This document shows, piece by piece, positions 14,937 to 39,645 of a stretch of DNA of 64,000 nt. The position numbers were made by a program, and so were the translations under genes. Source of the stretch: Paracyclopina nana (lineage: Eukaryota > Arthropoda > Copepoda > Cyclopoida > Cyclopettidae). Numbering within the stretch: the stretch's first letter is position 1; the number at the start of each line of letters is the position of its first letter. The stretch lies in NCBI GenBank assembly GCA_019096065.1, contig JAGUCH010000007.1, positions 7,078,215 to 7,142,214 of the forward strand, given 5' to 3'. The notes below the pieces were generated by a model. That model was not told the DNA's origin and made no database searches. It saw nothing but the letters and a program-made list of their open reading frames with translations.

Positions 14937-15645
14937 TGGTGTACAATTCGTACTCTCTTCAGGAACCTAGGAAGGTTAAGCATCGGTCCCAAGTCCAGTA
15001 CTCATTCGCAACACCGGAGCTGCCAGGTCTCACGAGCCGCTATGCAGAGGCCGCAGCCTCACGTACACAGCTTCTGGCAAGGAACCTCTCGGCACGCTTA
15101 TGTACAGTTGACCAGTGGTTAAGGCTCGCCCTTTCACCCTGATCATTCCAGGGATCAGGACCTCGCTATGAGTTGAGCACTAATATACTTCATTAAGGTC
15201 TGATGGTATTTTCTATTCATTAGCTGGCACAACACAACATAACAGCTGCTTCTAATCAGAGCTCAAAACAATATATATGACAATAAAGTTTCTTCTCTGT
15301 GGCTGTCTCTTCAGTGCTGCACACGTCAAACTTGGCGAGGATCTTCAGGTTCCAGCTGCTGGCAGAGTTCACACCAGTCAACCTCTAGCTATAAGGTTGA
15401 CATGTTGCTTCTCTGAAGTCCCCTGAAGAACTCCCCTCTACCTCGCAATCCTGCCTTGTCCTCCCAAGGCTAACCTCCCTTCACCAGGTAGCTTCATCTT
15501 CCTTCCCATATTTCTGATGCAATTCAACAGGGAGGTTGCGAGGTTATGGTTGATATTTTTGCGTTGAATAGTCATCTTCTTCTTCCTTCTGTTTCTGTCA
15601 TCCCATTTCCATATCATAACGCCATGATGAACTTGTCGTCCATCA
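14937..15645 (-). repeat. LTR, left copy (3' LTR relative to gag-pol)
   Basis: 709 bp, starting TGGTGTACAATTCG and ending GTCCATCA on the plus strand. A palindromic TATATAT at about 15,271 could serve as a TATA box on either strand. Plus-strand AATAAA occurs at about 15,282. I could not fix the R/U5 borders. The sequence next to it inside the element gives at best a weak polypurine tract (minus strand, GGGCCGGGG). Confidence 0.9.
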
Positions 15646-15759
15646 TTACCCCGGCCCAAACTTTTTCAGCTTTTGTCATCATTTTATGAACTAAAATATG
15701 AAAAAAGGTGACTAGATTGCTCAATAGTAAATGATAAGTGATACAACAAAACTTTAGCT

Positions 15760-17663
15760 TTATACTAACGTAGCAGCTCCAAGTTTGTTTTTTGCACCCA
15801 TCAGTCCCATTTCCATGGGGTCCTTTTCATTGTCAAGGCGCCTGGCATTAACCCGCCGGCGCCCAGTTCTTGGTTCAACATAATCAGGCTCTCCACAGCA
15901 TCTGCGGATTAGTGCCCGACGTTTCCACACTAGGATGCAGACTAACAAAATTATAATAAAGCCTGAAAGTGTGCTTATAATTAGTATGATTTTCCAATGG
16001 TCAAACAAACCCAATGGCTCTTCCTCTGGAAACTTTGTAAAGAACTTCAAAATGTCACTTTCCCATGGGGAGTCTTCATACCCAGTACTATAACTTCCCA
16101 TCGTGACCAGGCAATGGCTCAGTACTTGGTACGAGCCAGGCACTAAAGTTATGGAATTCTTAAAGTCATTTAAGCAAGTCCTGTTTATAGAAGTGTCCTT
16201 GATGACGTTCAGGAACCCTCTGTACTCCTGGCAAGCCACTTCTTCCAATGTATTATCAGCCAGTGGGACCATGTTACACTCGGAAAAAGGGTCACCCAAA
16301 GCTAGGCCCAATAATAACTTGGCACACTGTTGGGCTCCGTATGGTATTGTAACATGCTTATTACCACACACAGTGACATTGGCATCATGCATATAGCAAT
16401 CTCCATAAATAGGTAGATCCTTAGTGACATAAGCCATATCTTTATATTTTGTTAAGAATGTGTCTGCTAACACTTGTCCATGAACACTTCTAGACACTAC
16501 TTTAAATGTCACTTCAGGTTCAGGATCCAGACTGTGGGAACTCATCATTCCCTGAGATACACTATCGCCCACCACTTCAGTATTAGTTAGTGGATCATAC
16601 ACACTATTTGTCACAGCTTGGTTCTCCAAATCACTAGCTATGTTAACTCGGGGCAGACTGAATCGCTTGTCAACCTGCCTAATGTTTCTAGCAAAGGTTA
16701 CTATTTGTTCCACCATCGCTAGCACTTCCTTGTAATCTCCGGGCAAGTAGCCGAGTTTTACAAATGCGTCACTAACCTTCGTAGCATGTGTACTGCCAAA
16801 CTAATATTATCCGGAATGACCAGAAGTTTGACTTTCTTCATCATTCCTTCAGTAAATTTTGTAGTGCGACCAGCTTCAGCAAGGTTATTAAGAGCGGTCA
16901 AAGCATGGTTGACCATACTTTTGGCCTTGGACAATTTATGGCTGATCCGGCCTTTATGATTAATGGCATATTTATGACGTACACAGATAGTTCCCACTGG
17001 GCTTGTGCCGTCAAAAAGATGTGACGAGGCCTCTACTAGTTTTTTATCAGTAAACTTCCCTGTTATGCATGGGAACCCAGGTTTGATGGAAGCTTTAGGA
17101 ACTTCTTTCCATGGAATTCTATCAAACTGAACACGTCCATCCAGTGAAACTGGAGAGTTCCCAATGAAACGAAACTTCAAGCAAAACGTGAAGGTAGTCG
17201 CAGTATTAGAATCTGCTGCTTGAGTCAAAAGTTCTAATGTTCTGTCCATGTCAACTTGGTTTTCCGGAATAAACGAGTTAAAATCAAGTCCTAGTGTTTT
17301 ACACTCCTCATCCAATTTCGTTGGGAGAGCCTTAACACCCACATATTCTCTATCTTGGTAGGTCACTACATCAGTGGGAGTCTGAGTTGTAGGAACCTCC
17401 TCCGTTAATCGTCCCACCCCATCCTCAAGCATATTCACCGAGTCACGGGTCTTTTCAAGGAGCTGGCGGAAATTACCAGTGTCAATGATCATAGCCTTTT
17501 TATCAGGCTTAGGATGATAAACCATGCGCACAGGGACCAAGGCATGCCCTTTGTGACATACCGGTCCATCTAATAGTGCGTTAGATGCAGCCCGGCTGTT
17601 GATTATGGGCACGGACAAAGTTAAAAGCACAAGCACCAACATTATTAACTCAGCGAATGTCAA
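15760..17663 (-). pseudogene. Env-like membrane glycoprotein, one frame break
   Basis: Two adjoining minus-strand frames, 17663-16758 and about 16746-15760, together look like one type I glycoprotein: signal peptide at the start (LVLVLLTLSVPIINS), Cys-bearing ectodomain with N-glycosylation motifs (NIS, NVT, NRT), a membrane anchor near 15,930-16,000 and a basic cytoplasmic tail of about 55 residues. The two frames differ by a single-base shift somewhere in 16,750-16,800, so the copy as read cannot make the full protein by simple translation. The break may be inactivation, sequencing error or recoding. It is placed just before the 3' LTR, the usual env position. I see no obvious multibasic cleavage site and cannot assign it to a known env lineage. 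Confidence 0.7.
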
Positions 17664-17909
17664 GTAAAAACTGACTAGGCCCCAGGCCTACGCCGCCTTT
17701 ATATGTACAACAGGTACTTGTTTCGGGCAAGGCAAGCGAGCCAGCCTTCCCCACCAAACATTTATTAGTATAGTCAGGTGCGCACAAGACCATATCTTAC
17801 TTTATAATACCGTATATCTCGAGTCTAACCTACTTAGAACCCGAGGTCCAATTAGCAAAGTAGATCAAAACTCATAATCCATATCTACAACAAAGTCAAA
17901 ATACAATGT

Positions 17910-19547
17910 TTAGAATTGGTCAACAAACTCATTTATCGCCGCTCCAAAGGACTTCAAGTCAGTTGATGATAGCGTCTCCATCTTGGCTACAATTAATTGG
18001 CCCAATCGAGCCTTTTCCTTGTCACCCTTGGTACGTTTCGCTTTTGGAGCTCCTTGTTTTATAGACATGGCCCCAGCAGATTGATTGGTCGCCGCCTCCA
18101 AGTAAGTGCGGGTACCTCGACGGTTTTTCTGTGGCCGATCCTGTATTTCAGCTACCTTCAGTGAGCGGGCCCCAGAGATGAAACGCATCGCTTGGGGGTT
18201 AGAGCGCTCTACTCTTTCCACAAACCTGCCTACCTCGCGAGGTAGCATGGCAGTCATGTCAACTTTGATATCGATTCTTCGTGGGGCTTGAGCAACCTCA
18301 TGCATAAGGCAAGACGGGGTTCCAACGTGCAATTGGAAGTAAGGTGAGCTCACATCCATAAAAAGCCTGGCATTGGCAAAAGACCTATCCAGAGTTGGCT
18401 TTAATTGAACAACGCCATGTTTAGCCAGATGCTTGGACACCACAACAGGTACCCTGGCACCGTCTCTTCCTTGGACATTGTAGACTGCGTAGCTAAGTGC
18501 AGAGGGACTTTGAATCGCAGCCCAATCCCTGACATTAGTGCGTCGATGATAGGTGTCATTGAACGCAGCCTCCTTTGGCAAATTGAAGACCGGGAGCGTC
18601 CCCAACATCAAGAAGACCACCACAAAATCTGGTAGCGGTCCTCCCTCGCTAACTGGCTTCAATTGTAACTCGAAAGTCTCAAAGTTACACACCTTTAATG
18701 GGCGGCGGAAGTCCGGTTGCTCCAGAACCTCGCCATTGCAGCGTACCGTGATATCAAAGGCTCTCTCACGGCTAACCATCGGAGTATTACTGATAGCCAC
18801 TTTTAACATGGCCTCGTTAAAGCCCCTCTGGACCAATTCTCGTACTGCCATTGCTTGACGGTTATACGTCTTGACGGTGTCCGGAAATGGGGGGCGGATC
18901 AAGTCCTGATACGCCACAGGATACCTCAGCCTCACAGCTTCATCCCCAAGGGGGAGCTCAACTATGCAAGGCCTCATCAATCTTGGGTCAGCACGGGCTA
19001 CCTCAACATTGTGAGTAGGTGCTAGTCCTTCATCATCCTGATCCATTTTTTCAGTCATAACTCTAGCATTTGGAGCCCGAGTCACAGTAGCAACTTCATG
19101 TTCTACATTCTCGTGGATAACCTGGTCACCAGAGTCCTTCCTTGAAGCCTCACCTCCCCTCACAAGTAAGGGAGGCCCCTCAGCCTCGTCAGCCTCATCA
19201 CCAGTTTGGGTATCAGCAAAGAGCGCCATCTGGTCTAATCTAGCACTTTCTTCGTCCCAAAACTGGGCATTAGCCCGGTATGCATCCTGATCAATGGTAC
19301 CAGGGGCCACACCCTCAGGTACCTCTTCCATAAGTAGAGCCTCATGTTCATGATCCTCCAGTTGCGGGATCATGACTACGTCAACCTTTCGGACTTCACC
19401 GTTCTTTTTCTGGTCCATCTCGTTTTCAGGCAAAGCTTCACCAAGTTTGGCAAGACTGGGGAGGGTGGTATCGGTAGCAGTGTTCATCATAGACTGGAAC
19501 CTGCTCATTTCCACCCCTTCTTTTATAGCTCTCAACCAGGTAACCAA
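17910..19547 (-). CDS. Accessory ORF of the LTR element, 545 aa, no known family
   Basis: Uninterrupted ORF. In-frame starts lie at 19547, 19508 and 19490. A minus-strand TATAAAA at 19527-19521 and an Inr-like CCAGTCT at 19497-19491 would put transcription start at about 19,495, so the ATG at 19490 or 19487 may be the one used, with a very short leader. Residues 20-170 are acidic and low complexity (Glu/Asp rich). Residues about 190-470 look folded, with phrases such as RRIDIKVDMTAMLPREVGRF. The C-terminus has a basic stretch (KQGAPKAKRTKGDKEKARL). There are no membrane segments. A nuclear or regulatory role, like the accessory proteins of complex retroviruses, is a guess from charge pattern and its own promoter. 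It lies between env and the insert and is divergent from the mucin-like gene. Confidence 0.75.
   Translation of the reverse strand: MVTWLRAIKEGVEMSRFQSMMNTATDTTLPSLAKLGEALPENEMDQKKNGEVRKVDVVMIPQLEDHEHEALLMEEVPEGVAPGTIDQDAYRANAQFWDEESARLDQMALFADTQTGDEADEAEGPPLLVRGGEASRKDSGDQVIHENVEHEVATVTRAPNARVMTEKMDQDDEGLAPTHNVEVARADPRLMRPCIVELPLGDEAVRLRYPVAYQDLIRPPFPDTVKTYNRQAMAVRELVQRGFNEAMLKVAISNTPMVSRERAFDITVRCNGEVLEQPDFRRPLKVCNFETFELQLKPVSEGGPLPDFVVVFLMLGTLPVFNLPKEAAFNDTYHRRTNVRDWAAIQSPSALSYAVYNVQGRDGARVPVVVSKHLAKHGVVQLKPTLDRSFANARLFMDVSSPYFQLHVGTPSCLMHEVAQAPRRIDIKVDMTAMLPREVGRFVERVERSNPQAMRFISGARSLKVAEIQDRPQKNRRGTRTYLEAATNQSAGAMSIKQGAPKAKRTKGDKEKARLGQLIVAKMETLSSTDLKSFGAAINEFVDQF
19491..19527 (-). promoter_or_regulatory. 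Internal promoter, minus strand (TATA + Inr)
   Basis: TATAAAA at 19527-19521 and CCAGTCT with the presumed +1 A at 19495 are 32 bp apart, the spacing expected of arthropod core promoters. It would drive the accessory ORF, and perhaps env, as a separate mRNA. Confidence 0.6.
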
Positions 19548-19732
19548 CAGCGCCTCACAGCGTTATTATTACCATAATTTCTCCAGCACGTTCATATTAT
19601 AGTGCGCAATTTTCTCGTTGCCGAGGTGAATCATTTCTCCCCGCTGAAATCGTTGCTCTTGTCTCCAAGATGCTGAGTCAACAAATTCCACTGCTCAAGT
19701 CTCGGTCTTGCAACATACGTCAAGCTCTCTTG

Positions 19733-19770
19733 CATAAAAGGCAATGCCCTGGTCAGCTTTCACGCAGTCT
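19733..19770 (+). promoter_or_regulatory. Internal promoter, plus strand (TATA + Inr)
   Basis: CATAAAAG at 19733-19740 and GCAGTCTT with +1 A at 19766 are 33 bp apart. The Inr heptamer CAGTCTT nearly repeats that of the divergent minus-strand promoter. The 200 bp between the two TATA boxes (19,530-19,730) would be a shared bidirectional control region. Confidence 0.6.
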
Positions 19771-19835
19771 TCAGCAGCATATCAACCCTTGAACTTATAA
19801 TAGCCCAACTTTACAGTTGTTTATATACATAAGTC

Positions 19836-20845
19836 ATGGGTTTCCTCCAGTTGCCCACCACCACTACGGCGGCTACAACTACAACAGCAATGACTAGCAC
19901 ATTGCCAACGACAGTTCGTCCCACTGCAAAGACCCTTGCAACCACCACTAGGTGGACCTTGCCCGAGTCTTGGACAAGAACTTCAACAATGGCGACTGCA
20001 GCACCCCCAACTAGGGTTACCACGGCCTCTACTAGTCCTCTCCCTGAGGTTGCAACCTCTATGGAGTCTGTTCCAAAGGATACCGCGGAGATCGACCCCT
20101 CTGTACCGTCATCCCGAAGTTTCTTCGAATTCGATCAGTACAGCGTTCAGGATTGGGTTGGCCTGGTAGCGGCCCTAGTGATCATTTTGGTGAGTCCAAT
20201 TATGACCATTGAATTTAAGCAAGGCTAGTCATTAATACTTTTCCTCGCCATCGTAGCTTCTTCTAATCATGGTCACATGCTTCTTGTACCGCCTGTACAA
20301 GAGGTGCAAGCGGTGCTGTCTATGCCGAGCCTGCGTTGAGAACGCAGAGGTCATTGACCAGGTTGAGCTGGAGCCTCTGGCCTTGCCATTGGCAAACCCC
20401 TCTTTCCCGGAACTTTACGAAACTATGAGTAGGAGACCGTTGCCTTCATTGCCATTGTCCAATTTTGATAACATGATCTTGGTACGTGGAGGCACGCCCC
20501 CTTACCATGTCTCCACCTTTTCACGCCCATCATTGAACGAGCCCATCTATGATGTGCTGCGGCCACTGGGACAAGTAAGTAATTGTTCGTTTCCTTAATG
20601 GGATCAAAGCTCAATGAAGATGTCTGCTCCATGCGTTTTGTGTACCTTAGATCCTCATCAGGTGCCTTTTTTTACAGGGGCAAACAGATGAAAGCCAACG
20701 CTCTAAGCGGAGAAGGAACAAAAGGCGCCGCAACCGGAGCCAGTTCTACGTCAATGTCCCGAGGACCACTGGGGCAGTGATCCAAGAACTACCAAACGAG
20801 GCCACCCACGCATTGTCAAGCACTGTAGCAGAGCCCACCAATTAG
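19836..20845 (+). CDS. Spliced mucin-like transmembrane protein encoded on the opposite strand of the LTR element
   Basis: Three exons join in phase with good borders: 19836-20189 (GTGAGT donor), 20257-20574 (GTAAGT donor) and 20678-20845 (stop TAG), giving 279 aa. Residues 1-100 are Thr/Ser/Pro/Ala rich (for example PTTTTAATTTTAM), a mucin-like, probably heavily O-glycosylated stalk. One membrane segment (GLVAALVIILLLLIMVTCFL) is created across the first splice. The cytoplasmic part has a Cys/Arg-rich juxtamembrane stretch (YKRCKRCCLC), tyrosine motifs YETM (YxxM type) and YDVL (YxxL type), a Pro-rich patch and a basic C-terminus (RSKRRRNKRRRN). There is no N-terminal signal peptide, so it either uses a signal-anchor, N-out topology or has a further 5' exon. 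Poly(A) signal AATAAA is at 21,005. A receptor or adaptor-like signalling role is inferred from the tail motifs. Confidence 0.75.
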
Positions 20846-21004
20846 TGATCCATGGCGACCTCATCAGACCTCGCGGGGCCCAATAGTCTTACACTTAGTC
20901 ATCCCACTCGTCAAGTGCAACTTTTCGGGTGGAAATTATTCATTTTATGCGGTCTGTTTTAGCACTATGTTATTGTTTTTATTTACATAAGCATTGACAG
21001 ATCC

Positions 21005-21229: not shown

Positions 21230-21563
21230 ATGGCCCCATTTTTGGATGGTTTTTTCGTAAGTGCAAACAGAAATCTTTAAATTCCAGTGCAATCTTATAC
21301 ATAAAACAACATTTTTATGTTTTACAGTCAAACGAACAAACAACAGCAGCAGCAGCAGCAACGGCTGCCCCCGCCCACCTTCCCGTCGAAGGGGGGCAGG
21401 CCGCGGCCGAGTCCGCGGTCCTGCTGCCCCAGGAGCCCGCAGGCCAGCTGGCGGGCCTTCAAGGCCAAACCTGCCAGGGGGATGGTGTTGTAAGTTCTTT
21501 TCATAACAGATTAGATCCCTTTAGCGATCTTCCTTTTCATTGCAGGCCGAAGAGATTCTCTAG
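21230..21563 (+). CDS. GC-rich mini-gene, 68 aa by splicing, possible readthrough
   Basis: Exon CDS 21230-21256, 21328-21489 and 21546-21563 join in phase; each intron is GTAAGT...CAG and AT-rich, while the exons are about 70% GC. The product is Ala/Gln/Gly rich (for example NEQTTAAAAATAAPAHLP) and ends at TAG (21561-21563). The same frame then stays open for another 70 codons to 21773, with hydrophobic and charged residues (YYGVVLPGLVWVNRAKPR). UAG readthrough, or use of the downstream frame, would double the protein. A third intron (about 21773-21831) and AATAAA at 21,914 complete the transcript. I recognise no family. A structured non-coding RNA is an alternative reading, but the phase-consistent splicing favours coding. 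Confidence 0.5.
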
Positions 21564-21913
21564 GGCATCGCCATAAACGTGGCAGCGGCGGCCACCTATT
21601 ATGGGGTGGTGCTCCCGGGCTTGGTCTGGGTCAACCGGGCCAAGCCCCGGGGGCTGTATCGGCTCGTCAGCCGAGTCTGGGCCGAGCCAGAGGAGCTCCC
21701 CCGGGTGACCCGCTGGGTCCTCGGCCTCCTCGGGATCCCCGAGACCGAGGACCCCCTCGAGGGCGTGGTGTAGTAAGTGTCCTTATCAGGATTAATGAAA
21801 TCACCCTTGACACTGTCTTTTATTTTTGCAGAACTGTCTGGTTTCGAGGAGGGGCGACAGGGCGCACCCCCGGCCCACCCTTCCGCCGGGCCCGGCCTCG
21901 CCTCCCTTCAGGC

Positions 21914-21919: not shown

Positions 21920-22809
21920 GCCAGTTCCACCTTACTTCTGATATCTGAGTTTTCGCAAATCATTTCGCGTTTTCTGAGCTGAGCAACTTATCATCGTCTG
22001 GGCCTCAGCAAAAACTACGGCTTCTTCAAGTGCCGAATTGCTTTGCCTGCCTCATCTTATCATATCATATTTACGTTAGCATGGCATAACTTGAGCCTTG
22101 CCGACTACAATATTCTCATGTGCGTATATAGCTAATTCGCACTTTTTCACGCATCTCAGCGAAAAGCTACATTTACAGCGTTCGTCACGCACATTATAAT
22201 TAGCTCCACAGGTAGAAAGCCATAGCAGAAAATCAGAGGTTAAGGTCTTATCTCGTCACCTCACGTGAGCAGGTAATAACAATAACCTTCTCGTACTCGG
22301 TTCAGCACTTGCACATAAAATTCTGTACGGTGCGACGAACAGATTACTTTCCATATTAGCTATATTAAGGGGCGCTATCGCCCAACAAAAATACGGGTGC
22401 GTGGAGGCATCCGAAATCAGGTGTCATAAGCAGAGAAAAGAAGAAAGTTCAAGCCCATAAACCAAGGGACTAGCCCCTGGAGCATCGCTTTATTCTTCTG
22501 ATCCCAGATGCCTTACGCACCTTAGCTCAAGCAAGGGGCAAAACCCAAGCTGAGACTAGGAACAAAAAGTGAACAAAAATATGGTCTGTTTAGCACACAC
22601 TGCGGTACCATCTTTCCATCAGTCTTATTTTCTCTTTTGGTAAAAGACGCAGTACATATTAGCCTCGACACCTTTCAAAACTTCAGCAAGGTTCTCGATG
22701 CACATTAATAATAAGTCCACATTAAAGCACTGCTCCTTGGTTCTCATGCCTCTACGCTATAATGGCATGACATTACTGGTGGAATTAATGATTCACGATT
22801 ACCACCCGT

Positions 22810-22822
22810 GGCGCCCCCTAGC
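22810..22822 (-). promoter_or_regulatory. CTCF-like motif 1
   Basis: GGCGCCCCCTAGC, which is close to the reverse complement of the CTCF core (CCASYAGRKGGCRS). Confidence 0.45.
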
Positions 22823-23413
22823 ACTAACACAGCGGTAATTTATATTCATAACGTTTCGTTCTTAGACTGAGTGCTAAGATGATATTTGCATTCTCATTGG
22901 CGCATAAGAAGCACCGGTTATTATCATGAGCTCTTTTTCACATCAGCACGCTCAGAACTTTTCCAAGTCAATGCCCTCATATTTTACCTTTTAAATGATA
23001 GGGCTCGCTTTTGAGCCCCACAAAAATTAACTGCCTTCGTGTAATTAGCGCCATTTGCCAAGAGCTCATTTATGAGTCTAACCTGAGGTGGAGAGGCAAC
23101 TACTCAGCTTATGGCCACTATTACGGCAGCGTCTCATTTGGCTTGTAGGGGGCAGAACCCCAAGCACAAACAGAGTCACAAAGTTAAATGCCTTTATTGA
23201 TGCACATTTTCTTTACGTACAATGTGGCGATATGCTCCTCGTTTGCACACTTCTCAAGTTATAGCGTGCTACGTAGTTCTTATCCACAAAGCATGTGCGC
23301 ATTCATGATCCCTCTAGGTCATATTTTGTCGATGAAGCAAATGGAAATAGTTCCTTTGCTACACCTTTTGTATATTGCAAACTTTACTGTCCGTTCCAGC
23401 CACTCTTTTGGCT

Positions 23414-23429
23414 AGCGGCACCATCTAGC
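23414..23429 (-). promoter_or_regulatory. CTCF-like motif 2 (weaker)
   Basis: AGCGGCACCATCTAGCG, in the same position of the unit as the other sites. It resembles the GCGCCATCTAGC form seen in host repeats of this window. Confidence 0.35.
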
Positions 23430-23480
23430 GAGCTTCACTGCTGTACTAACCTTTATGCTCATAAGGCGCAAGCAAGTAAA

Positions 23481-23588
23481 ATGCCAGCGTACACAGCTTA
23501 TCTCGCATTCTTTATCGCCATTATCTTAGCGATCATTTTGTTGGTGGGCAAGCTTACTTCTTTCACTGAGAAAGTTATTTTCAGCTAA
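23481..23588 (+). CDS. Possible 35-aa single-pass membrane micropeptide
   Basis: ATG at 23481 opens a 35-codon frame whose centre is strongly hydrophobic (LAFFIAIILAIILLVG), with KLTSFTEK after the membrane segment. It lies about 60 bp after CTCF-like motif 2. No clear promoter and no equivalent in the neighbouring units, so it may be chance in AT-rich DNA. Confidence 0.25.
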   Translation: MPAYTAYLAFFIAIILAIILLVGKLTSFTEKVIFS

Positions 23589-24243: not shown

Positions 24244-24258
24244 GAGCGCCCTCTGGCG
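24244..24258 (-). promoter_or_regulatory. CTCF-like motif 3
   Basis: GAGCGCCCTCTGGCG, close to the reverse complement of the CTCF core, in the corresponding place of its repeat unit. Confidence 0.45.
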
Positions 24259-25071: not shown

Positions 25072-25089
25072 GTCGCGCCCCCTGGAGGC
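25072..25089 (-). promoter_or_regulatory. CTCF-like motif 4 (best match)
   Basis: GTCGCGCCCCCTGGAGGC. The core CGCCCCCTGG is the classic reverse-strand CTCF sequence. Confidence 0.5.
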
Positions 25090-25484: not shown

Positions 25485-25523
25485 ACCCCTTATATAATTG
25501 CACCCTGACGCGGGCCAGGATGT

Positions 25524-30600: not shown

Positions 30601-33600
30601 CTAACATGTTCACTAGTTTTTGAGTTTCCTCACAGTTTTGTTGCAAACGTATGAGAAGGTTGCGTGTAATTCCTGGTAAATGTACCGATATTTTACGCTT
30701 AACAGTAATTGCGTCAACAATAACATTGTTTTCTATGTCAAAGACAGGGGATTCAGGGTTAGCTTCACCTTCAAATGAATGCGAAACCTCAGTTAACCTG
30801 TCAACCTCATTATCATCCTTATGACGCGCATGAAGAATAGTGGAAGTGTCATCATGAACAAAAGGTGGAGAGGAACCTATTAGTTCAACCCACTTGTCAT
30901 TCAGACATTGTAATCTTTTTTGTAGTAAAGACTTTGACATAGTACCTGAATTAACCAAAGTGTCAAATACATGTGTCAAAAGTTCCTGCGTGGTTATTAC
31001 TTTAGAGGAAATTTCCTCCGGGAGTGGATAAACACCAGCATAAATGTCCTTCGTAATTTGCGATTGAATGGAATACGGTGCAAAGAACACTGTATTTCCC
31101 TCAGTTTGATGATACTTATTCAATAATATATCAACAATTTCAATCTCAGTTCTTGGCACAGCACGTATTTTCCACGCTACTGGCAAGGAGTATATTCTCG
31201 CTGCAAGTCTGTGCGTAAAAGCATCTTTACCAGTAAATGAGCTAGCCAGTATACTGGCAATCGATAGACAATCAGTTACTATCACTAACCGCTCATACGC
31301 AAAGAGTATACTTTTATAGTGGTGTATCATCATTAATACACCTAATGCTTCTCGCTGAAACGAGTGGTAAGACAAGCACACTGACAATGGGAATCTAGCA
31401 CTGTGAGCCCCAACACACACTGCCTTCCCATTGGCATCAATTTCCATAAGTAGAGCTGAGGTACTTATTACACCCGAGTCTACTACTAAATACGCTTCCT
31501 TGAAGTTAGGCAAGGCCAAGGACATTCCTGTCTTTATTTCCTCTATAACCTTGTAAAAGCATTTTTCTTGAAAAGGGGAGAAGTTAAACTTCCCTGTTTT
31601 CCCCTGTTTAGTTGCCATTACATCCAATAGAGGTGCCGTGTAAGTGGCCATGTTAGGACAATATTGGCTTAACCAGTTGGTCATACCAATGAACTTTTGT
31701 AATTGCTTCTTTGTTGAAGGCATCGGGAAGTCATCAAACGCAGTCCTGTATTTATCAGGCATCTGCATCGTCATAACTCCATGCTCATCAATTTTTATGA
31801 GGTGTCCAAGGACTGTAGCTTCCTTGACCCCTAATTGAGTCTTTTTGATTTGTAATAATGCATTTAGTTCCCTTAAACTGTCAAACAGTTTCCTGAGATC
31901 ACCTAAATGCCTCTTATAATCGTCTAGAGTTGCCGGCTTCGGTTTGTCCGGATTCTTGCAAGAGACCAATAAATCGTCTACATAGACACAAGTGAAAGGT
32001 AATATTTCAGGATTAATTGCCTGAATTAATAAAGATGAAAATTCTCTCACAGCCAAGGCCGTACCCTGCAATATAGCCTTACTTTTCAAATAAAGGCCTC
32101 TATACCTAGACCGTGGTGACGTCACAGCCAGGCAGCACATATCTGCACTGTCAGAATCAACAGGTAAGTTGTCATATCCTGAGGTGACATCAAAAGATGA
32201 CATCAAACATGAGTTCGAAAGCATCCCTAATAATGTAGGAATAGGCGGAACAATATGTTCAGATGGCGTAAAAATCAGGTTCTTATTAAAGGACGTCAGG
32301 TCCACTAATAACCTAGGTTTACGTTGTTTCATAGGTAACTTTTCATCGTTTGGCCTTGATGTTAAGAAGCAAGGGCAAGCAGAGTACCTATTTAAAGACT
32401 TATCTACTATTTCAATTAAGCCAGAAGATAACATTAATGATATCTTCCTATCCACTTGGGTGGTTTCATACTCAGACATGTTAAACACCTTCGGTACCAG
32501 GGGTTTATTGTCCTTTAATTGAAATTTTACGGGGTCCACATTCCATAACCTAAAAGATCTCGGATCATCAGAGAAGATGTCCTTATATTCTATCAATATA
32601 TTCCTGTAGTCTTCTCTGACTTCCACTGGTATGTGGTCCAGGTCAAACTTTAAGACTGTGTCAAGTTCCAATGGAAAGGTGTAGCCAGCTACTCCATTTA
32701 GAACTCGATGTGGGTCAAATTCACTAGGGAACTGCAATAAAAGGTTATAAACCTCTTCATACAGCCTCTGATTCTTTGCCTCGTCTTGCGTTATTTCTAA
32801 AGAGGCGGACACTAAGTCCAATTCAGAGGGGTTTTTAATTACCGTTTGCCTGACACAGAGATCAGCTATTGGGCCTTCATATATAGTAGTGTAACTTTTA
32901 CACATTATCTTAGATCCAGCACGCTTAGCTATACAAAGGGCACAAGCACAATTGTCTGGCTTGTACTCAAAAGGTATAAAACCACCAAACTTTGTCTTTA
33001 TATCCTCAAATGTAGATTCATGTGGATACATAGGCAAGCCCGATAGTAATAACAATGCAGAAGACACTGCTAAACACACCGGTTCTTCTACTGACACATC
33101 ACCATCCATTAAGGTTCTCACCCATATATTATCAGCCACACATTTGTAACGTAAGTGGCCAAATATATTGTAAACTAAGGTAGCCATGTAACCAACATCC
33201 CTTGATTTGGGGCAAGGCACATGGATCATTAGTTCTATATCATTTGCTATCTTATACATGACGGTGGGAGCACCCAAGATAGTGAATTCGTAATATTTAT
33301 CATTTCCATTTCTTTGATAAGCAACAGGAAAGCAATCATAACTATGAACCATGATAGTTAGCACCACTCTCTCCATACCAGCCAGGTAATTCTCTATAGG
33401 AGTGAGAGCTATAGTCCTACATTTATCATGAACGTTTTTGTATTTTACCCAAACTACACTTAGTTTTTCAACTATAGAGTTGAGCTTTAATATAATCCGC
33501 TTTTGTTCCCCAGACAATAATTTATCACTAGGGACAACAACTACCCATGGTAGGCTATTCCAGTTCCATTTACTGACAAACTCCATCAATAGGTCATCCG

Positions 33601-35194
33601 TGATTTCCTCAAAACCATCAGATTGGTTAGAGGCAATGAAAACATGATTCCAATGTCTGGTTAGCTTTTGTTTAACATTACCCTTTATGTGAACTTGTTC
33701 ATTAAAGGTGTGCATGTCAGTGAAAGCTAATCCATTTATGTCAACAAATTGCACCAAAATATGCGTGTCAATAAACTCACAATAGCAAGTGTCCACTATA
33801 TGGTTCAAAGACTTTAAACTGAGGTTTAACTTATGCACTATTTGGGTAGGCTTATAGCGTTGTTTCTTAACAATATTAGCCTTTCCTATGATAGAATGAG
33901 CCTCAATGTAAATGGGCTCGTCAGAATTATTACCTATCTGCACTGGAAAAGTGCCCTTCCGGGTCACAGAAGTAACACATCCTTCAGCAGTAGCGCTGGT
34001 ATAATCCTCATCCGGACTAAATTCCAAACACTTATCATGAAAGCTAGAGTAAACGCTTTTACTTTCTGGCTTTACTTTAACTTCATCATGGTCCACTTCG
34101 GCGTCTGAATCACCAAGAATGGGCTCAGCTACCAAAGGTATCTCATGCGGAAAGCTAGCATTAACTGTCACTTCCCTTCCAGGTAGCACAGTAATACTTT
34201 CATTTATAGCTACAGGGTAAAACGCTTCCTTAGTAAGGACTAGGGGAATCTTTTTATATTTTATTCGCCCTGGGAAATCAATAAAATGACTTCCATCCCT
34301 ACTAGTCAAGCGTATGTTGTTATCTACTAATAACGAATTCCCAATCATAAGCAGGGTCTCACAGTCAGAGACTAAGAACACTGCTTGTCTAATCAGTACT
34401 CTATTGTTAAAGGCGACTTGCAGAACCACGCCTTCAGTGCTGGGAAATTCTTCCCCATTGAAATTCTTAATAAGATAATTGGTTTGAACTCGCGGTAATG
34501 AGTAACCCAATTTTTCTTCAACTAACCTTACTAGTGTGCGAGATATGATTTGAACCATTGCTCCACTGTCAAATAAGGCATGAAGTCTTATCTGGCCTGT
34601 AACTTGGACAGGTATGTAGTACCTTTCACACACATTGTGTAATTTTAAGGAAAATACACTTAGCGTGTCATCGTCTTTAATGATCCTTTCTAGCTGTACA
34701 TTTTCATCCGGAGTTTCAATGCAGCCAGCAGTTAGCTTCGCCACATGTACAGGTACATCATACTTGTAGGATGTGTCTGGAAAGAACCAGCACATGCACA
34801 AGCATGCCATTATTATAATGTATGCTATCGCTACAGGCACGACTTGGTCATAATTGTTCAGCCACAGCACCAAAGCTAGCATAACAATTACCCATAACAA
34901 TATTTCTTTCCACATCCTAGGTGGGGTTAACCCATCTTTAGTCTCATTCATGTACTGAGAACCAGATATGGCCAAAACAATGGCACTTGAGGTTTTTTCA
35001 TCAGGCCTCTTTGCGCACTGTTTTCTCTTTTCTGAGAGTGCTTTTAGGTGATCAAAATACACTCTCCCTACTTCTTTGTTACATTCTCCACGCATAAAAG
35101 AGGGCAGAACATAACTATCATCATGTGTAGTGTCTGTTTTAGGTTCTTCTTCCATTTCAGACATTACCTTCGTGCTTGTCTCGACTTCCAGCAC
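27683..35194 (-). CDS. pol: Pol polyprotein of the LTR element, 2,503 aa
   Basis: One open frame starting at ATG 35194, overlapping the end of gag by 31 nt in a different frame, so it is made by frameshift, reinitiation or its own message. Domains: two predicted membrane helices at residues about 95-145 (WVIVMLALVLWL and VAIAYIIIMACLCMCWF), unusual for Pol; retropepsin near 205-212 (LFDSGA); Ty3-like RT about 905-1160 with catalytic YVDD at about 1073 and the downstream FPMPSTKKQLQKFIG; RNase H about 1230-1360; integrase with an HHCC zinc finger about 1560-1620 and catalytic Asp, Asp, Glu at about 1653, 1715 and 1754 (MIDLAYFD, ADNGAQL, NAYAENS). After about residue 1900 an extra tail of about 600 mostly disordered residues follows. 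All catalytic residues are present and no stop interrupts it, so it is probably functional. Confidence 0.93.
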   Translation of the reverse strand: MLEVETSTKVMSEMEEEPKTDTTHDDSYVLPSFMRGECNKEVGRVYFDHLKALSEKRKQCAKRPDEKTSSAIVLAISGSQYMNETKDGLTPPRMWKEILLWVIVMLALVLWLNNYDQVVPVAIAYIIIMACLCMCWFFPDTSYKYDVPVHVAKLTAGCIETPDENVQLERIIKDDDTLSVFSLKLHNVCERYYIPVQVTGQIRLHALFDSGAMVQIISRTLVRLVEEKLGYSLPRVQTNYLIKNFNGEEFPSTEGVVLQVAFNNRVLIRQAVFLVSDCETLLMIGNSLLVDNNIRLTSRDGSHFIDFPGRIKYKKIPLVLTKEAFYPVAINESITVLPGREVTVNASFPHEIPLVAEPILGDSDAEVDHDEVKVKPESKSVYSSFHDKCLEFSPDEDYTSATAEGCVTSVTRKGTFPVQIGNNSDEPIYIEAHSIIGKANIVKKQRYKPTQIVHKLNLSLKSLNHIVDTCYCEFIDTHILVQFVDINGLAFTDMHTFNEQVHIKGNVKQKLTRHWNHVFIASNQSDGFEEITDDLLMEFVSKWNWNSLPWVVVVPSDKLLSGEQKRIILKLNSIVEKLSVVWVKYKNVHDKCRTIALTPIENYLAGMERVVLTIMVHSYDCFPVAYQRNGNDKYYEFTILGAPTVMYKIANDIELMIHVPCPKSRDVGYMATLVYNIFGHLRYKCVADNIWVRTLMDGDVSVEEPVCLAVSSALLLLSGLPMYPHESTFEDIKTKFGGFIPFEYKPDNCACALCIAKRAGSKIMCKSYTTIYEGPIADLCVRQTVIKNPSELDLVSASLEITQDEAKNQRLYEEVYNLLLQFPSEFDPHRVLNGVAGYTFPLELDTVLKFDLDHIPVEVREDYRNILIEYKDIFSDDPRSFRLWNVDPVKFQLKDNKPLVPKVFNMSEYETTQVDRKISLMLSSGLIEIVDKSLNRYSACPCFLTSRPNDEKLPMKQRKPRLLVDLTSFNKNLIFTPSEHIVPPIPTLLGMLSNSCLMSSFDVTSGYDNLPVDSDSADMCCLAVTSPRSRYRGLYLKSKAILQGTALAVREFSSLLIQAINPEILPFTCVYVDDLLVSCKNPDKPKPATLDDYKRHLGDLRKLFDSLRELNALLQIKKTQLGVKEATVLGHLIKIDEHGVMTMQMPDKYRTAFDDFPMPSTKKQLQKFIGMTNWLSQYCPNMATYTAPLLDVMATKQGKTGKFNFSPFQEKCFYKVIEEIKTGMSLALPNFKEAYLVVDSGVISTSALLMEIDANGKAVCVGAHSARFPLSVCLSYHSFQREALGVLMMIHHYKSILFAYERLVIVTDCLSIASILASSFTGKDAFTHRLAARIYSLPVAWKIRAVPRTEIEIVDILLNKYHQTEGNTVFFAPYSIQSQITKDIYAGVYPLPEEISSKVITTQELLTHVFDTLVNSGTMSKSLLQKRLQCLNDKWVELIGSSPPFVHDDTSTILHARHKDDNEVDRLTEVSHSFEGEANPESPVFDIENNVIVDAITVKRKISVHLPGITRNLLIRLQQNCEETQKLVNMLVLTPEHEVPTSIAARYRVIDCALLVIRKNVKLPFTKATNTKVYMSMQNCVYLMACIHLLHNHLGSKKVNTLFTQSMFSTYSARISRIIVGACMHCALYRQANTRFVGKGRFRIPDKPFDLVMIDLAYFDQTLVKGKDAKVCLVIIDVYSKMIIAKPLLNSTYREVATAMEEVTSLFGVPKTLLADNGAQLTSNHALQRLIDKYKIQELCQYRTLSPNKHSNAYAENSVRVLRNALILNSKSYKRPMSEVFKLSVYAINNRPLTYLSYTDPNGVKVIPTPFSLFFDKMPGYHLGRDVFEILSESEDIIHKAEWQDVMRKYDEEEQRRFELMKATERPSFKPEIGSLVLVIKHPVNKHGYKFMQDLFEVIDVGSHSTVTVKPYLHDGLTREVSLDHVKLYRFHELYKFLPEKITHLLMRPYTPDEMLQRLSRNEMLKFLEEDEPEVNEYALRNRVSQSIAARDEAKSEWASNVTEELITATSSLGTSTIKDHQTLKHSGSILRKKATDLFKPSDVRRIQEENRRIVKQQWDNYVPKPPPNEGVTDSADSAHMKEGSYLSPDEQKADKLIDQLLESSSKTYETTLYEELKSLQSEDLPTFEDLAAKGKVFLEVPKSTRPRSPSQISTPTNMTGTLLNDDVSPVPRAFRGRRSPRPSPKSPEQEEADISKVVSEASLLINQDKFDTDLESLASALENVGEFIDDEYIDSQPLYQPTIADVLETFESEKDFEETLSKVMAENRKFSPDTKNRFLDAFKRGSQLLKKKLSMSPKKNDKEEDGNQSIKSNVIPSAPTREQIYETDMLQNDSESSSTSSPEDELLSPIKEAAVPGASDEVEPEGAAAAIPLKILQRPREGLRDKPRVDYKAMVTRRYNRKLPIHYNPGHPRESALTPEERELARIKYSFRNPRPKPNEKYILQKVVPAWRKDTNVATVQDYSKFLEAGGLDHLNDSFVQELKQLRLNRHELYLLVHKQFK

Positions 35195-37650
35195 GGTAAT
35201 CCATTTATGACCTTGTGTAATCCTTTACAAGATATACACACAGTGCCATCCTTTTTTAACTCATCCAGTGAAACACCTGGATAGTTCTCGCAACTTTTGG
35301 CATAGTGGGTCCCATTGCAGAACAGGCATCCACCTGTTTCAAATGGGTTTCCCGCCGGCAGCTTACTAATGTCGATATTAAAGGTAGCTGCAATTCTTTT
35401 AGATCGCTCAGCCTCAGTCTCGGCTTTTAACGCCGCTACTTCAGCAGTTTGGCGTTCCAATTCTGTATTCTTTCTAGCCAACTCACCATGCAGAGCACTT
35501 ATTATTTTGGCACTCTTTGAGCTAACATGTGACATCACTGATAGCATGCTAGCACTGTCCAAATTGTCCTCATCAACTTCAACCATAGCAAGATGGGCTT
35601 TGTGTTTAACAGCTGGGGCCATAGGTAGCCTAGCATCTCTAGCCCCTCTGTCTCGCTCAGTTTTCGGTATGTGAGTCCCCACATGGCCCCCAATTACCTT
35701 GACCATCTCCGATAGAGCGGCCATGCTCCTCAGGGGCGTACCTTGTTTCAACAGATGCTCATGGTATATATTGATATACCCTTGGTATTGTTGAGGCCAA
35801 TGCCTTTTCAGTAGGGCATGTGCATCAGTGATCGTCTCAGAAATGGCATGTGCTTTGCCATCTCCATCCATAGAGTCTCTATGGATTCGCAACCTGAGTT
35901 TATACAATTCCCTAACGGATTGATCAAAAGTCTGGGTGGGGTTCCTGATGATGTTATGTATTCTTACAAACTCATCTACCTCCTGGACATTCTTGGTGTA
36001 AGCATAGATGTCATTCCAAAGGATCTCTACGCCTTCACTTGCCACACCTCTGAAGTACTCAGCTGTGCTTGCAGTAGCCCCTTCGCATAAACCTTCAATT
36101 ATAGCATCATGGCTCCAGTCATACCGGCGGGCCAGTGTGCTCACTGTGCGCAAGAATTCTAGCACACTATCAGCAGTATTAGAAGAACTTTGCATATCGA
36201 ACCTCTTAGCGTACTTTGCTCTGATCTCCTTGAGGGCACTAGTATTGGCAAATTTCAGATGCCCATTAGGAGGCAAAGGTATATAATCCTTATTGTATTT
36301 AGGATCATACACACTTTTCGAATGTTCGGAGTACGAGGGAACAGCATAGCTCACCTCAGGGCTTTTTAAGTGACATTCCACAAAGATTTTGCGCTGCAAT
36401 GGGGTGAACTCAGGTCTGGTCTGCAAGGCCTGAAATAGTTTTTGCATCTCAATGACCTTTTTTCCAGGTGACAACTCCGGATCCACCATTTGCAACACAA
36501 CTCGCCTAGCAGATTCAACATCTATTATTTCATTAATATTGATAGCTTCAATCCTTTCATCCAGTGGGGCATCTTCATGGTAGACCGACTCAGCCACTGG
36601 TACTAATGAATCCTTGGACGCAGCATCAGCTAATTTCAAAACCCGTTCAAGGTTTCGTTCGTAAATATCATTTGGGTCAGCCCCAAACATGTGCTTTGCA
36701 GTCATTTGGGCAGTAGCTATTATTTTATTAGCAGTGCTCGCATCATGCAACGCAGTGTAATGGGCTCGCACCACACCCAAGTCATATGGACTCAAGGTCT
36801 TTCCTTTCAACAATTTCATTACTGTGGTTTCTACCACCTTACCAGGGGGCAGAACCACCGAATTATTTAAGACAGTCAAGTCCTTCAAAGTCATTTTAGT
36901 GGACGTAAGAATTGATTTTTGGCCATCTTGGAACCCAACCTTCTTGGGGATGGCCGACAGGTCCAATGACTTGTTTTTATTAGCATCCTTTGGCGGATCC
37001 TCCACTGCAAACGAAGTGGAGATCACTAGTCCTTCTTCCTCATCAGGTTCTAAGAAGAAGTCAGGCCGTAATCCAAACAAAGCAGCAACAGCATCTAATC
37101 CTGTTGCTGGGTTAGTAAGTTTCTCTTTATTAATCATGGTACTCAGAGCTGTTATTATTGGCTCCAATTCCTCATTAGGGCTAGCAAAGTCCTCTTCACC
37201 AGCATCAGTGGATCTATTAAGAATGATCGTTTTCTTCTCCCTGAATGCTTTATTTAAATACTCCATACCAAAACAATAGAGGAGCAAAGCACACGTAGCC
37301 GAATTGCGGTCAGGAGGGTCAATTGCATTGACATACCTGACCACCACCATAATCTGTCTAATAGGATCATCCTGGGGCATTTGCTCTATGATTTTCATAA
37401 TATGCAAATCAAGAGAAAGGGGCTCCTCGGTGCTTAGGACAATAATTTGTGTAGCATTCCATGCTCTTACCACCTCTGTCTTGGTGACATTCAAGGTACC
37501 AGTAGACGTTGGGTACTTGACCCACGATAGAAAGTCCTTCACTGCCTCCCTGCTTCCCCCAGTAGGAGTGCAAGGTTTCAGCAGTTTCCCCAAAGCAATC
37601 TCAGTGACTTCCAAGTGCACTCGAAGTGCATTTTTCAAATCACGAGACAT
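35164..37650 (-). CDS. gag: Gag of the LTR element, 828 aa
   Basis: Intact frame from ATG 37650. It is long for a Ty3-like Gag (often 300-500 aa). The C-terminus has a coiled-coil-like stretch (residues about 735-770, with ELARKNTELERQTAEVAALK), then a zinc-binding block: CX2CX3HX4C (CLFCNGTHYAKSC) and a second CX2CX3HX7C. This paired knuckle spacing recalls BEL/Pao proteins, although RT and integrase are Ty3-like. It forms the particle and packages RNA. Stop is at 35164, overlapping the start of pol. Confidence 0.88.
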   Translation of the reverse strand: MSRDLKNALRVHLEVTEIALGKLLKPCTPTGGSREAVKDFLSWVKYPTSTGTLNVTKTEVVRAWNATQIIVLSTEEPLSLDLHIMKIIEQMPQDDPIRQIMVVVRYVNAIDPPDRNSATCALLLYCFGMEYLNKAFREKKTIILNRSTDAGEEDFASPNEELEPIITALSTMINKEKLTNPATGLDAVAALFGLRPDFFLEPDEEEGLVISTSFAVEDPPKDANKNKSLDLSAIPKKVGFQDGQKSILTSTKMTLKDLTVLNNSVVLPPGKVVETTVMKLLKGKTLSPYDLGVVRAHYTALHDASTANKIIATAQMTAKHMFGADPNDIYERNLERVLKLADAASKDSLVPVAESVYHEDAPLDERIEAININEIIDVESARRVVLQMVDPELSPGKKVIEMQKLFQALQTRPEFTPLQRKIFVECHLKSPEVSYAVPSYSEHSKSVYDPKYNKDYIPLPPNGHLKFANTSALKEIRAKYAKRFDMQSSSNTADSVLEFLRTVSTLARRYDWSHDAIIEGLCEGATASTAEYFRGVASEGVEILWNDIYAYTKNVQEVDEFVRIHNIIRNPTQTFDQSVRELYKLRLRIHRDSMDGDGKAHAISETITDAHALLKRHWPQQYQGYINIYHEHLLKQGTPLRSMAALSEMVKVIGGHVGTHIPKTERDRGARDARLPMAPAVKHKAHLAMVEVDEDNLDSASMLSVMSHVSSKSAKIISALHGELARKNTELERQTAEVAALKAETEAERSKRIAATFNIDISKLPAGNPFETGGCLFCNGTHYAKSCENYPGVSLDELKKDGTVCISCKGLHKVINGLPCWKSRQARR

Positions 37651-38922
37651 CCTTCCGTTTCGCTAAAGAGAGGTTCTCTTTAACTCAACTTGTCCTTTAG
37701 TTTCGTCAGAGAAGTTAATCTCTAAGACTCAACTAGGTTTTTGTACTAAGTTAACACAAATGCTAACTTTTCGTACAGAGCTACGTCGCACGACTTAAAA
37801 GCACTAGGCCTCTAATCGCACTCAATTAAAAGCTAAAGCTTTTAATCGTAATACTGTTCAAAGCACAGTTAGCTTCCTACTTACGCCGGTCAAGTGACTC
37901 GGAGAAAAAGTTGCAATTACTATGACAAGTTTTTATTTCAATGATTAGGACCACTTTTACCTAAGTAGTCTTCACCAAAGACCCACACGCACACAAATAT
38001 ACACACACACACACAAGAATAAAGATGAGCACTTGCTCAGAAGAGATATTACCAAACCTAGGCACCAGATGTCCAACAGAATCCTAAGTGCCCACAAGCT
38101 GAAAAACAAGGGTTGCATTCACTTTTACCAATCCTGAACGCCACTGTGCTGAGCAAGCTCAACAAAGTGAATGGAAAGAGAAAGAGGTACACACACACAC
38201 AGGTATACGAAGCTCGCCCAGGCGCGCACTCTTTGCGCCCCAGAAGAGCCCTGGTCCAGAGCACCATACACTTTCCAGGGTGGCTTCCACCCCAAGCTCC
38301 ATGCACGCCCTACACGCTCCAGGTTATTCGTTCTTCCATCTGCTTCAGCTTCTAACGGGTTCAACTTTCCAAAATGGCTCCCATCTTGAGCTCCATTGAC
38401 CCATTAAAGCCCACAGGGGCAATGACACGCATGCCACCACCCGGCTACCATTTCCGGCTGCTTGGCTCCCATTTTCCAGCTTAAGACAAGCAAGGACGTC
38501 CCCACGGGCCTTCTCCCTTAGGAAATGATAGTACCAAGCCACACAACATAGGAACTTTGTCTGGCTAGGATCCATGGAATTTTCTTCACAAACTAGGGCC
38601 GTCCATTCATAGATATAGTCTATTTAGGCACAACCTCTAAATGTGGCAACGGTGCGAAATGTACGTGTGCCTTTTTCATTGCATTTACCGCTAGACTACA
38701 CATAGACACTTCCACCGGGATGGCCTTCTTGGCTCGTCAGCCTCAGGACTTTTACAGTATTGACACACCCCAGTCGCAACTAAAGTGCCGCCTAACCATC
38801 GCAGCCTCGCCCTCGGCAATTCACAGCCACAAATGGGTAACTTCAGGACGCATCCATCCATCTTTTTCCAGGACTTCTTTTGGTCTTCAAACCACTAGAG
38901 AGAGAGTGGCCATTCATCCCTC
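37651..38922 (-). other. Leader between 5' LTR and gag
   Basis: About 1.27 kb without a supported gene. It holds an imperfect (CA)n tract at about 37,995-38,014 and several short hairpins. Small plus-strand open stretches here are not supported. It should contain the packaging signal. Confidence 0.5.
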
Positions 38923-38933
38923 CGGGGCCTCCA
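38923..38933 (-). other. Primer-binding site, tRNA-Thr type
   Basis: Three bases inside the 5' LTR the minus strand reads TGGAGGCCCCG. Its complement CGGGGCCTCCA equals the 3' end of animal tRNA-Thr including CCA, based on my recollection of tRNA-Thr sequences. Confidence 0.6.
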
Positions 38934-38936
38934 AAA

Positions 38937-39645
38937 TGGTGTACAATTCGTACTCTCTTCAGGAACCTAGGAAGGTTAAGCATCGGTCCCAAGTCCAGTA
39001 CTCATTCGCAACACCGGAGCTGCCAGGTCTCACGAGCCGCTATGCAGAGGCCGCAGCCTCACGTACACAGCTTCTGGCAAGGAACCTCTCGGCACGCTTA
39101 TGTACAGTTGACCAGTGGTTAAGGCTCGCCCTTTCACCCTGATCATTCCAGGGATCAGGACCTCGCTATGAGTTGAGCACTAATATACTTCATTAAGGTC
39201 TGATGGTATTTTCTATTCATTAGCTGGCACAACACAACATAACAGCTGCTTCTAATCAGAGCTCAAAACAATATATATGACAATAAAGTTTCTTCTCTGT
39301 GGCTGTCTCTTCAGTGCTGCACACGTCAAACTTGGCGAGGATCTTCAGGTTCCAGCTGCTGGCAGAGTTCACACCAGTCAACCTCTAGCTATAAGGTTGA
39401 CATGTTGCTTCTCTGAAGTCCCCTGAAGAACTCCCCTCTACCTCGCAATCCTGCCTTGTCCTCCCAAGGCTAACCTCCCTTCACCAGGTAGCTTCATCTT
39501 CCTTCCCATATTTCTGATGCAATTCAACAGGGAGGTTGCGAGGTTATGGTTGATATTTTTGCGTTGAATAGTCATCTTCTTCTTCCTTCTGTTTCTGTCA
39601 TCCCATTTCCATATCATAACGCCATGATGAACTTGTCGTCCATCA
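38937..39645 (-). repeat. LTR, right copy (5' LTR relative to gag-pol)
   Basis: 709 bp, the same as 14,937-15,645 by line-by-line reading. Its inner edge leads straight to the primer-binding site and the outer edge to the TTAT duplication. Confidence 0.92.

Follow-up and report, generated by a model that had tools for sequence, protein, structure and literature searches.

Foamy viruses express their downstream genes from an internal promoter and carry sense accessory genes, and in human immunodeficiency virus type 1 (HIV-1) the antisense gene ASP overlaps env. Retroviral antisense genes further include HBZ of human T-cell leukaemia virus type 1 (HTLV-1), which is spliced, while ASP encodes a membrane protein with PxxP (PMC10186651). 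The plant long terminal repeat (LTR) elements Retand (PMC11963269) and Grande (PMC7264820) have conserved antisense genes in the long region between pol and the 3′ LTR, that of Grande being expressed from an upstream promoter. Giant Ty3-like elements are known in planarians and plants (Burro and Ogre), and the planarian Burro elements combine an internal region of more than 20 kb with a Ty3-like pol, env homology and many copies (PMC6431247). Rotifer elements carry extra open reading frames (ORFs) (PMC5408684), and for the Drosophila MDG1-group elements a fusogen that moves capsids has been proposed (PMC11952523). The subject of the present analysis is a single LTR element of 24,709 bp on the minus strand (14937-39645) of a 64-kb stretch of DNA (the window) from the copepod Paracyclopina nana. 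Coordinates are positions in this window, and the copy analysed in it is called W. Judged from its sequence, W is best explained overall, and in our view very likely, as an LTR element of the Ty3 kind that resembles a retrovirus and has moved recently, with a downstream half organised like the genome of a small virus.

W is bounded by two LTRs of 709 bp with TG...CA ends (5′ LTR, 38937-39645; 3′ LTR, 14937-15645; both minus strand), which are identical over the full 709 bp, and by a target-site duplication TTAT at 39646-39649 on the 5′-LTR side and 14933-14936 on the 3′-LTR side; both features stand as described in the original prediction, an earlier reading of the letters of the window. The primer-binding site (38916-38933, minus) consists of 18 nt complementary to the 3′ end of tRNA-Thr(AGT) including the CCA, and together with the TG...CA LTRs and the short duplication it agrees with a Ty3/Metaviridae-like element. 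All sense genes lie on one strand: gag and pol adjoin the 5′ LTR, and ORF3 and an env-like gene adjoin the 3′ LTR. Two plus-strand genes, here named alpha and beta, are placed between pol and ORF3. The large internal region, Ty3-like pol, env-type gene and high copy number are shared with Burro; in contrast to the gag, env and pol of Burro, which are joined in a polyprotein of about 4,900 aa (PMC6431247), the genes here are separate and two spliced antisense genes are predicted, and a gag-env-pol polyprotein was not found in this element. It differs from Retand (PMC11963269) and Grande (PMC7264820) in the absence of TRP28 and in its predicted membrane proteins, introns, env-like gene and ORF3, its size of 24.7 kb and its animal host. 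HBZ is driven from the 3′ LTR and encodes a basic leucine zipper (bZIP) factor (PMC10186651), whereas here two genes occupy a dedicated region with predicted internal promoters.

A search of the whole genome (92 Mb, one genome) with the LTR and the reverse transcriptase (RT) was used to collect further copies. The LTR gave 47 matches, from which 15 LTR pairs were read, 12 of them close and three belonging to a subgroup A′ with about 90% LTR identity. Eleven pairs measure 24.3-24.8 kb from end to end and two 23.4-23.8 kb; the remaining two, of 34-37 kb, presumably carry further insertions. All four pairs that were fully read have matching 4-bp duplications (TTAT, ACTA, TAAT and CCAA) and show 0 differences within the pair over 709 positions; the divergence is therefore below about 0.4% (95% bound) and the insertions are recent. 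With the RT, at least 89 scored matches were obtained from 395 candidates, down to 51% identity, some of them pieces of one element. They form the identity classes A including A′ (≥95%; 14 matches, 13 elements), B (77-88%; 60), C (67-69%; 8) and D (51-52%; 7). Open frames of at least 2,400 aa contain 25 of the 89 matches, one of these 25 having a stop within it. B elements possess their own LTRs of about 926 bp, with 40 LTR matches and eight readable pairs, five spanning 23.0-23.4 kb and three 29-33 kb. LTR pairs, RT matches and identical LTRs thus indicate a large, multi-lineage and recently active family.

The region from pol to ORF3 and env was compared in 11 other A-type copies, three A′, three B, one C and two D copies. 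Among the 14 other A and A′ copies, the 11 close ones align with W along most of the pol-ORF3 region and the three distant ones (A′) in blocks; L034 is without about 0.9 kb of the region, and L030, L032 and L033 have no nucleotide match over alpha. The alignment of copies from the genome, which had been suggested as a check, returns the same order, and LTRs pair at about 24.7 kb. Two situations that would have undone the reading were named beforehand. Copies without the insert at 15.7-27.7 kb did not appear among the 14 compared: the close copies carry most of it and the distant ones carry it in blocks. An assembly join is disfavoured because of the matching duplications and identical LTRs in all four pairs, and with the LTR pairing and the region alignment we reject it.

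The gag gene (35164-37650, minus) encodes 828 aa with a zinc-knuckle-like C-x2-C-x3-H-x4-C close to the C-terminus, and is followed by pol (27683-35164, minus), whose 2,493-aa product contains a hydrophobic hairpin, protease (PR), RT, RNase H, integrase (IN) and a long C-terminal tail. Both genes had been described as intact, with all catalytic residues in a pol of 2,503 aa; the open frames and motifs are present, the length being 2,493 aa from the ATG and 2,513 from stop to stop. PR DSG, RT YVDD and IN HHCC were found by pattern, and the acidic residues of RNase H and IN were identified by eye, while the Pfam models RVT_1 and integrase core match pol above their cut-offs. The domain order PR-RT-RNase H-IN is that of Ty3/Metaviridae-like elements. 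Since the gag stop and the pol start overlap as TAATG, pol may be translated by reinitiation. Against solved RT structures, 12 chains match the RT of W at E 0.01, Ty3 best (5e-22 and 2e-21) and the remaining 10 far weaker (2e-11, 2e-10, then 2e-7 and worse); we take these to be a caulimovirus, a foamy type and other retroviral RTs, respectively. By sequence the RT is thus nearest to Ty3 among the solved RTs, with foamy-type RTs farther away. A search of 5.8 billion proteins gave 14 matches at just 21-27% identity, so this RT lineage is distant from catalogued proteins, and no relatives were confirmed in viral contigs (4 pattern stretches). Two hydrophobic segments at pol residues 84-126 (about 34915-34787, minus), N-terminal to the protease, are unusual for Pol.

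ORF3 (17910-19508, minus; 532 aa), announced in the original prediction as a novel accessory ORF, is present in A and has relatives in B, C and D: A and B are 46% identical in the genome search, and pairwise comparison gives E 5e-15 for A with C and 8e-16 for A with D. A structure model of the W protein, made without an alignment, had a mean predicted local distance difference test (pLDDT) score of 36.4 and was unusable. In lineage D, ORF3 of L043 (6617-7857) consists of two overlapping frames, the second of which also occurs in L044 (2493-3398), and perhaps reflects a small sense-strand intron. The env-like glycoprotein gene (15760-17687, minus) also exists as claimed, although not intact in W, where it is split into two overlapping frames of 309 and 346 aa stop to stop. 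It is a single frame of 628-678 aa in nine of 12 A-type copies, the exceptions being W, one copy on C1 and one on C4. Hydropathy and alignment show an N-terminal hydrophobic signal, an ectodomain, conserved cysteines and a C-terminal membrane anchor, as expected of an env, and A shares 52% identity with B, 33% with C and 37-38% with D. At the sequence level it does not match the known fusion glycoproteins of errantiviruses or retroviruses. The env-like protein probably serves, or served, cell-to-cell spread.

TATA boxes with CAGT-type initiators at the right spacing precede ORF3, env and alpha, and possibly beta. A divergent promoter region (19490-19835) contains a minus-strand TATA at 19527 for ORF3 and a plus-strand TATA-like element at about 19735 for alpha; the predicted core promoter of env (17669-17703, minus) has its TATA at 17703. 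Within the whole element a strict TATA-initiator (TATA-Inr) pattern matches the ORF3 and env sites, one site in pol and nothing else, and in the flanks it has 3 matches in 66,682 strand-bases. Five of the eight ORF3 and env genes of the four lineages (A ORF3, A env, C ORF3, D ORF3 and D env) score at least 13, a score reached by 0%, 0.4%, 3.5% and 0% of the control windows in four sets of 1,500 each. The TATA-CAGT pair of alpha is kept in all 14 other copies. As to an HBZ-type drive from the 3′ LTR, the observation for alpha is this internal TATA-Inr-like pair, a predicted promoter. AATAAA follows alpha (21005), beta (21914) and ORF3 (17761, minus), which is weak evidence because the two strands of the element contain this hexamer 40 times. 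From these predicted signals, ORF3 and env are probably made from their own TATA-initiator promoters, with alpha diverging from the promoter region of ORF3. The original prediction's account of W (young, retrovirus-like, coding on both strands, with additional promoters) is sustained, the promoters as predictions and the ambisense part more strongly than it had been put.

At least two opposite-strand genes had been proposed, and alpha and beta are indeed there, not as plain ORFs and instead spliced by prediction, both encoding predicted single-pass membrane proteins; the ORFs at 19833-20598 looked scattered because the exons are split by this predicted splicing, and belong to one gene. Exon 1 of alpha (19836-20189, plus) encodes a Ser/Thr/Pro-rich outer part and the first half of a membrane segment, exon 2 (20257-20574, plus) the second half, a basic Cys-rich juxtamembrane part and a tail with RPLPSLP and YDVL, and exon 3 (20678-20846, plus) an Arg-rich C-terminus and the stop. 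The product of 279 aa has 50% S+T+P in its first 100 residues and one membrane segment of Kyte-Doolittle (KD) hydropathy 3.31. In eight copies with listed ORFs, the plus-strand frames recur in A and A′, and opposite frames of like layout occur in B, C and D. The donor sites at 20190, 20575, 21257 and 21490 are present in all 14 other A/A′ copies and that at 21773 in 13; a donor-like site at 25825, outside both genes, is likewise kept in 14 of 14. Both alpha introns have GT..AG in 15 of 15 A/A′ copies and the exons are without frameshift in 13, while the stop is absent from its usual place in L036 and L038. Between alleles, dN/dS (the ratio of nonsynonymous to synonymous divergence, omega) ranges from 0.09 to 0.65 for 20 of the 24 exon comparisons (16 at 0.1-0.4), dS being saturated in the other four, values that are rough because many dS are near saturation and copies near-identical.

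Across lineages the alpha protein is hard to align (A with B, 29% over 45 residues, E 0.001), and homology is based on its place, layout and intron, which are alike. In the copies read of all four lineages alpha starts next to ORF3 in the opposite direction and has its membrane segment interrupted by intron 1 (60-67 nt, phase 0). All three B copies and both D copies keep exons 1 and 2 open. The tail carries [RK]xxPxxP in A, B and D, and YDV is seen by eye in the same three lineages; the pattern Y[DEG]x[LVP] is found in A and B alone, with chance rates of 20% and 11%. Scanning of alpha exons 1-3 and beta exons 2-3 revealed no TRP28 and no Pfam domain above cut-off, the Arg-rich exon 3 of alpha matching Ourmia_CP below threshold, with 17.1 bits where 27 are required. 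L030 and L032 are about 95% identical to W at 21.1-21.9 kb versus 56-57% in alpha, L033 is similar, and L035 has a third type (58-63%). In L030 the adjacent beta exon 3 has a dS of 0.04, whereas dS in alpha is at saturation for the first two exons and 1.41 for the third. The simplest reading of these sequence differences is that alpha is an exchangeable cassette, which would be moved by recombination between co-packaged or co-resident genomes.

Beta comprises a predicted exon 1 (21230-21256), an Ala/Thr/Pro-rich exon 2 (21328-21489) and an exon 3 (21546-21773, all plus) with a membrane segment, weaker than that of alpha (KD 1.61), and a conserved tail. In all 15 A/A′ copies exon 2 is open, and 14 of them have the start ATG. 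Exon 3 is the best-conserved antisense piece (A with B 74%; A with D 50% over 44 residues, E 4e-12), with an omega of 0.18-0.32 between A and B; the W-L036 and L036-L039 comparisons were excluded for beta as artefacts of a lost stop symbol. Beta was found in A, B and D and the alpha layout in all four lineages. Two alternative frames of exon 3, an Arg/Gly-rich one and one on the minus strand, are both open over long stretches, and were set aside because the substitutions fit the frame GIAINV.... Exon 3 has two acceptors 18 nt apart, the second of which (alternative acceptor at 21564) is an in-frame TAG (CAG/GCCGAAGAGATTCTCTAG/GGC), in A, A′ and B; in D an in-frame TAG lies three codons past the first acceptor. 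After the TAG, exon 3 is open in 12 of 12 A-type copies. Either both acceptors serve, giving a short isoform that stops at the TAG and another that is membrane-bound, or beta is spliced to the second acceptor alone.

The presence of introns in an element that is copied from RNA can be accommodated by its orientation. A full-length RNA from the 5′ LTR would supply Gag and Pol and be the packaged genome, ORF3 and env transcripts would come from internal promoters, and alpha and beta would be transcribed from antisense promoters and spliced, their products going to membranes. The copied RNA would then be the opposite strand to alpha and beta, and their introns would be carried unchanged. We hold it very probable, from the arrangement of the genes, that the introns survive because the RNA that is packaged and copied represents the strand of gag and pol, where they are not read as introns, and that intron-bearing genes would therefore have to be antisense. 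The two alpha introns in all 15 A/A′ copies are in line with such carriage.

What alpha does at the membrane is less certain. In one reading, to which its sequence lends about as much support as leaves doubt, alpha is an accessory membrane protein that acts on the host cell surface, signalling or trafficking by means of SH3-type RxxPxxP and tyrosine motifs, and host pressure would lie behind its exchange between copies. Nef and Tip are the analogies for such an adaptor, and a Nef-like or Tip-like role is our first choice, ahead of a FAST-like (fusion-associated small transmembrane) fusogen. That alpha, and perhaps beta, is instead a FAST/sORF2-like fusogen moving capsids between touching cells appears unlikely. 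The single membrane segment with its adjoining Tyr, the basic Cys-rich stretch next to it and the PxxP tail do resemble the small single-pass sORF2 proteins of MDG1-group elements and FAST-like proteins (PMC11952523). However, MGxxxS/T is not found in any of the 15 alpha alleles, and the outer part exceeds 100 aa rather than having about 30 and the protein has 279 aa rather than 63-107; sORF2 proteins are shorter, mostly have a myristoylation motif, and all the candidates are in forward orientation in the account cited (PMC11952523), and the element already has an env-like gene. Somewhat less likely still is that alpha and beta regulate the expression of the element itself, in the manner of HBZ or the nuclear protein of Grande, or that the antisense RNA is the effector. 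The known precedents among antisense genes play regulatory parts or encode nuclear proteins, and alpha does end in an Arg-rich stretch; yet both products have predicted membrane segments, and alpha is constrained at the protein level, which an RNA-only role would not need. A broader interpretation, which we offer tentatively and doubt slightly more than we believe, is a DNA-virus-like layout in a lineage of giant animal retroelements: each downstream gene would have its own promoter, a bidirectional promoter would part the sense and antisense blocks, spliced antisense cassettes for membrane proteins, able to keep their introns only by opposing the copied RNA, would be swapped as counter-host modules, and the TAG of beta would double as an acceptor that decides whether the short or the membrane-bound form is made.

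Two explanations would dissolve the layout altogether. An ordinary Ty3 element with an unrelated insert nested between pol and env might be suspected from the size of W and its long stretch without convincing genes; it is hardly credible and is rejected, since this gene order is shared by the copies and the four lineages read, and the B elements are bounded by LTR pairs of their own at a distance of about 23 kb. That the antisense frames are open by chance, with unannotated sense sequence opposite them, would suit the GC-rich stretches, which open several frames at about 21.3-21.9 kb, but is very improbable given the conserved splice sites, the synonymous bias and the one intron position across four lineages. 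The reading of a retrovirus-like element with antisense membrane-protein genes nevertheless has points to be set against it. All copies come from a single genome, and the near-identical ones of subfamily A do not count as independent observations; transcription, splicing and promoters are predicted from the letters. Alpha is frameshifted in two of the 15 copies (L025 and L026, by small deletions in exon 1), and in the close pair W-L029 its dN/dS is 0.30-0.95 on 4-9 changes per exon; near-saturated dS, as noted, also leaves the omega values rough. RxxPxxP is absent from the C tail, and shuffled tails contain it at 13%, 8%, 2% and 10% (A, B, D and C). Exon 3 of beta is damaged in three A′ copies, by a stop in two and a deletion in one, and beta was not detected in C by a loose search. 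As to promoters, the TATA-CAGT pair of beta is seen in only eight of 14 other copies, the strict pattern also matches once within pol (28722), and several scores stay below 13: B ORF3 9, B env 11 and C env 12, A alpha and A beta 12 (8-11% of controls) and B alpha 10 (61-71% of controls). ORF3 has no homologue outside the present family in Pfam (no match above cut-off, the best weak one being DUF3736, E 0.03, for the D protein), PDB (no credible match), NCBIfam (none for the A proteins) or PHROGs (none for ORF3 and gag). Env likewise has no Pfam match above cut-off, PDB matches only at E 0.4-2.7, nothing among the 8,000 best-sharing candidates in the protein database and no confirmed relative in viral contigs (44 stretches).

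In a literature of which our coverage is partial, we found no animal LTR element described with antisense genes that are spliced and encode membrane proteins. We found no precedent for the combination of features, so that the original label of a new type is fair for the combination; antisense genes (HBZ, ASP, Grande and Retand), giant size (Burro and Ogre) and an antisense gene with its own promoter each have one. The element shows how intron-bearing genes can be carried by a reverse-transcribing element, through placement against the copied strand, a rule that can be tested in one genome with many young copies. It widens the size and complexity that we found described for arthropod LTR elements and blurs their border to complex retroviruses. 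Further, the function of antisense genes in retroelements, a question open in retroviruses and plant elements, could be studied in it as a natural system.

Between beta and pol lies a region without convincing genes (21950-27680), to which we assign no role. The several kilobases of structured non-coding repeats expected there are weakly supported: 21.9-27.7 kb contains just three two-copy direct repeats, and its RNA folding (mean z -2.08; 12 of 28 windows below -2) is like that of the coding parts of the element (mean -1.65; 13 of 43). At 25350-27100, several 200-nt windows have minus-strand folding z-scores of -4 to -6. The blocks 22396-22615, 23810-24000, 25644-25876 and 26622-26822 are kept by some or all of the A′ copies (about 74-84%), partly reordered or repeated. 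In lineage D, two sense paralogues that are 40% identical lie just 3′ of pol (L043, 796-1425 and 1598-2317), match Pfam DUF5662 (E 9e-9 and 2e-8) and are perhaps a captured, duplicated gene; as relatives of the A stretch they were rejected, with no match there or in the L036, L039 and L042 regions. Known RNA families gave one match up to E 1 in 14.9-39.7 kb, under its curated cut-off.

The window is the final 64 kb of its contig and ends in 5.9 kb of TAGGT repeats (58063-63989), i.e. TTAGG, the usual arthropod telomere unit; the element is subtelomeric here. Mutually related tandem arrays with a unit of about 200 bp flank it at 5369-5893 and 50090-50462. A flanking ORF (41759-44422) encodes an 887-aa, His-rich protein, the Cys-rich end of which resembles a protein of another copepod, Lepeophtheirus salmonis (66% identity over 96% of 113 residues).

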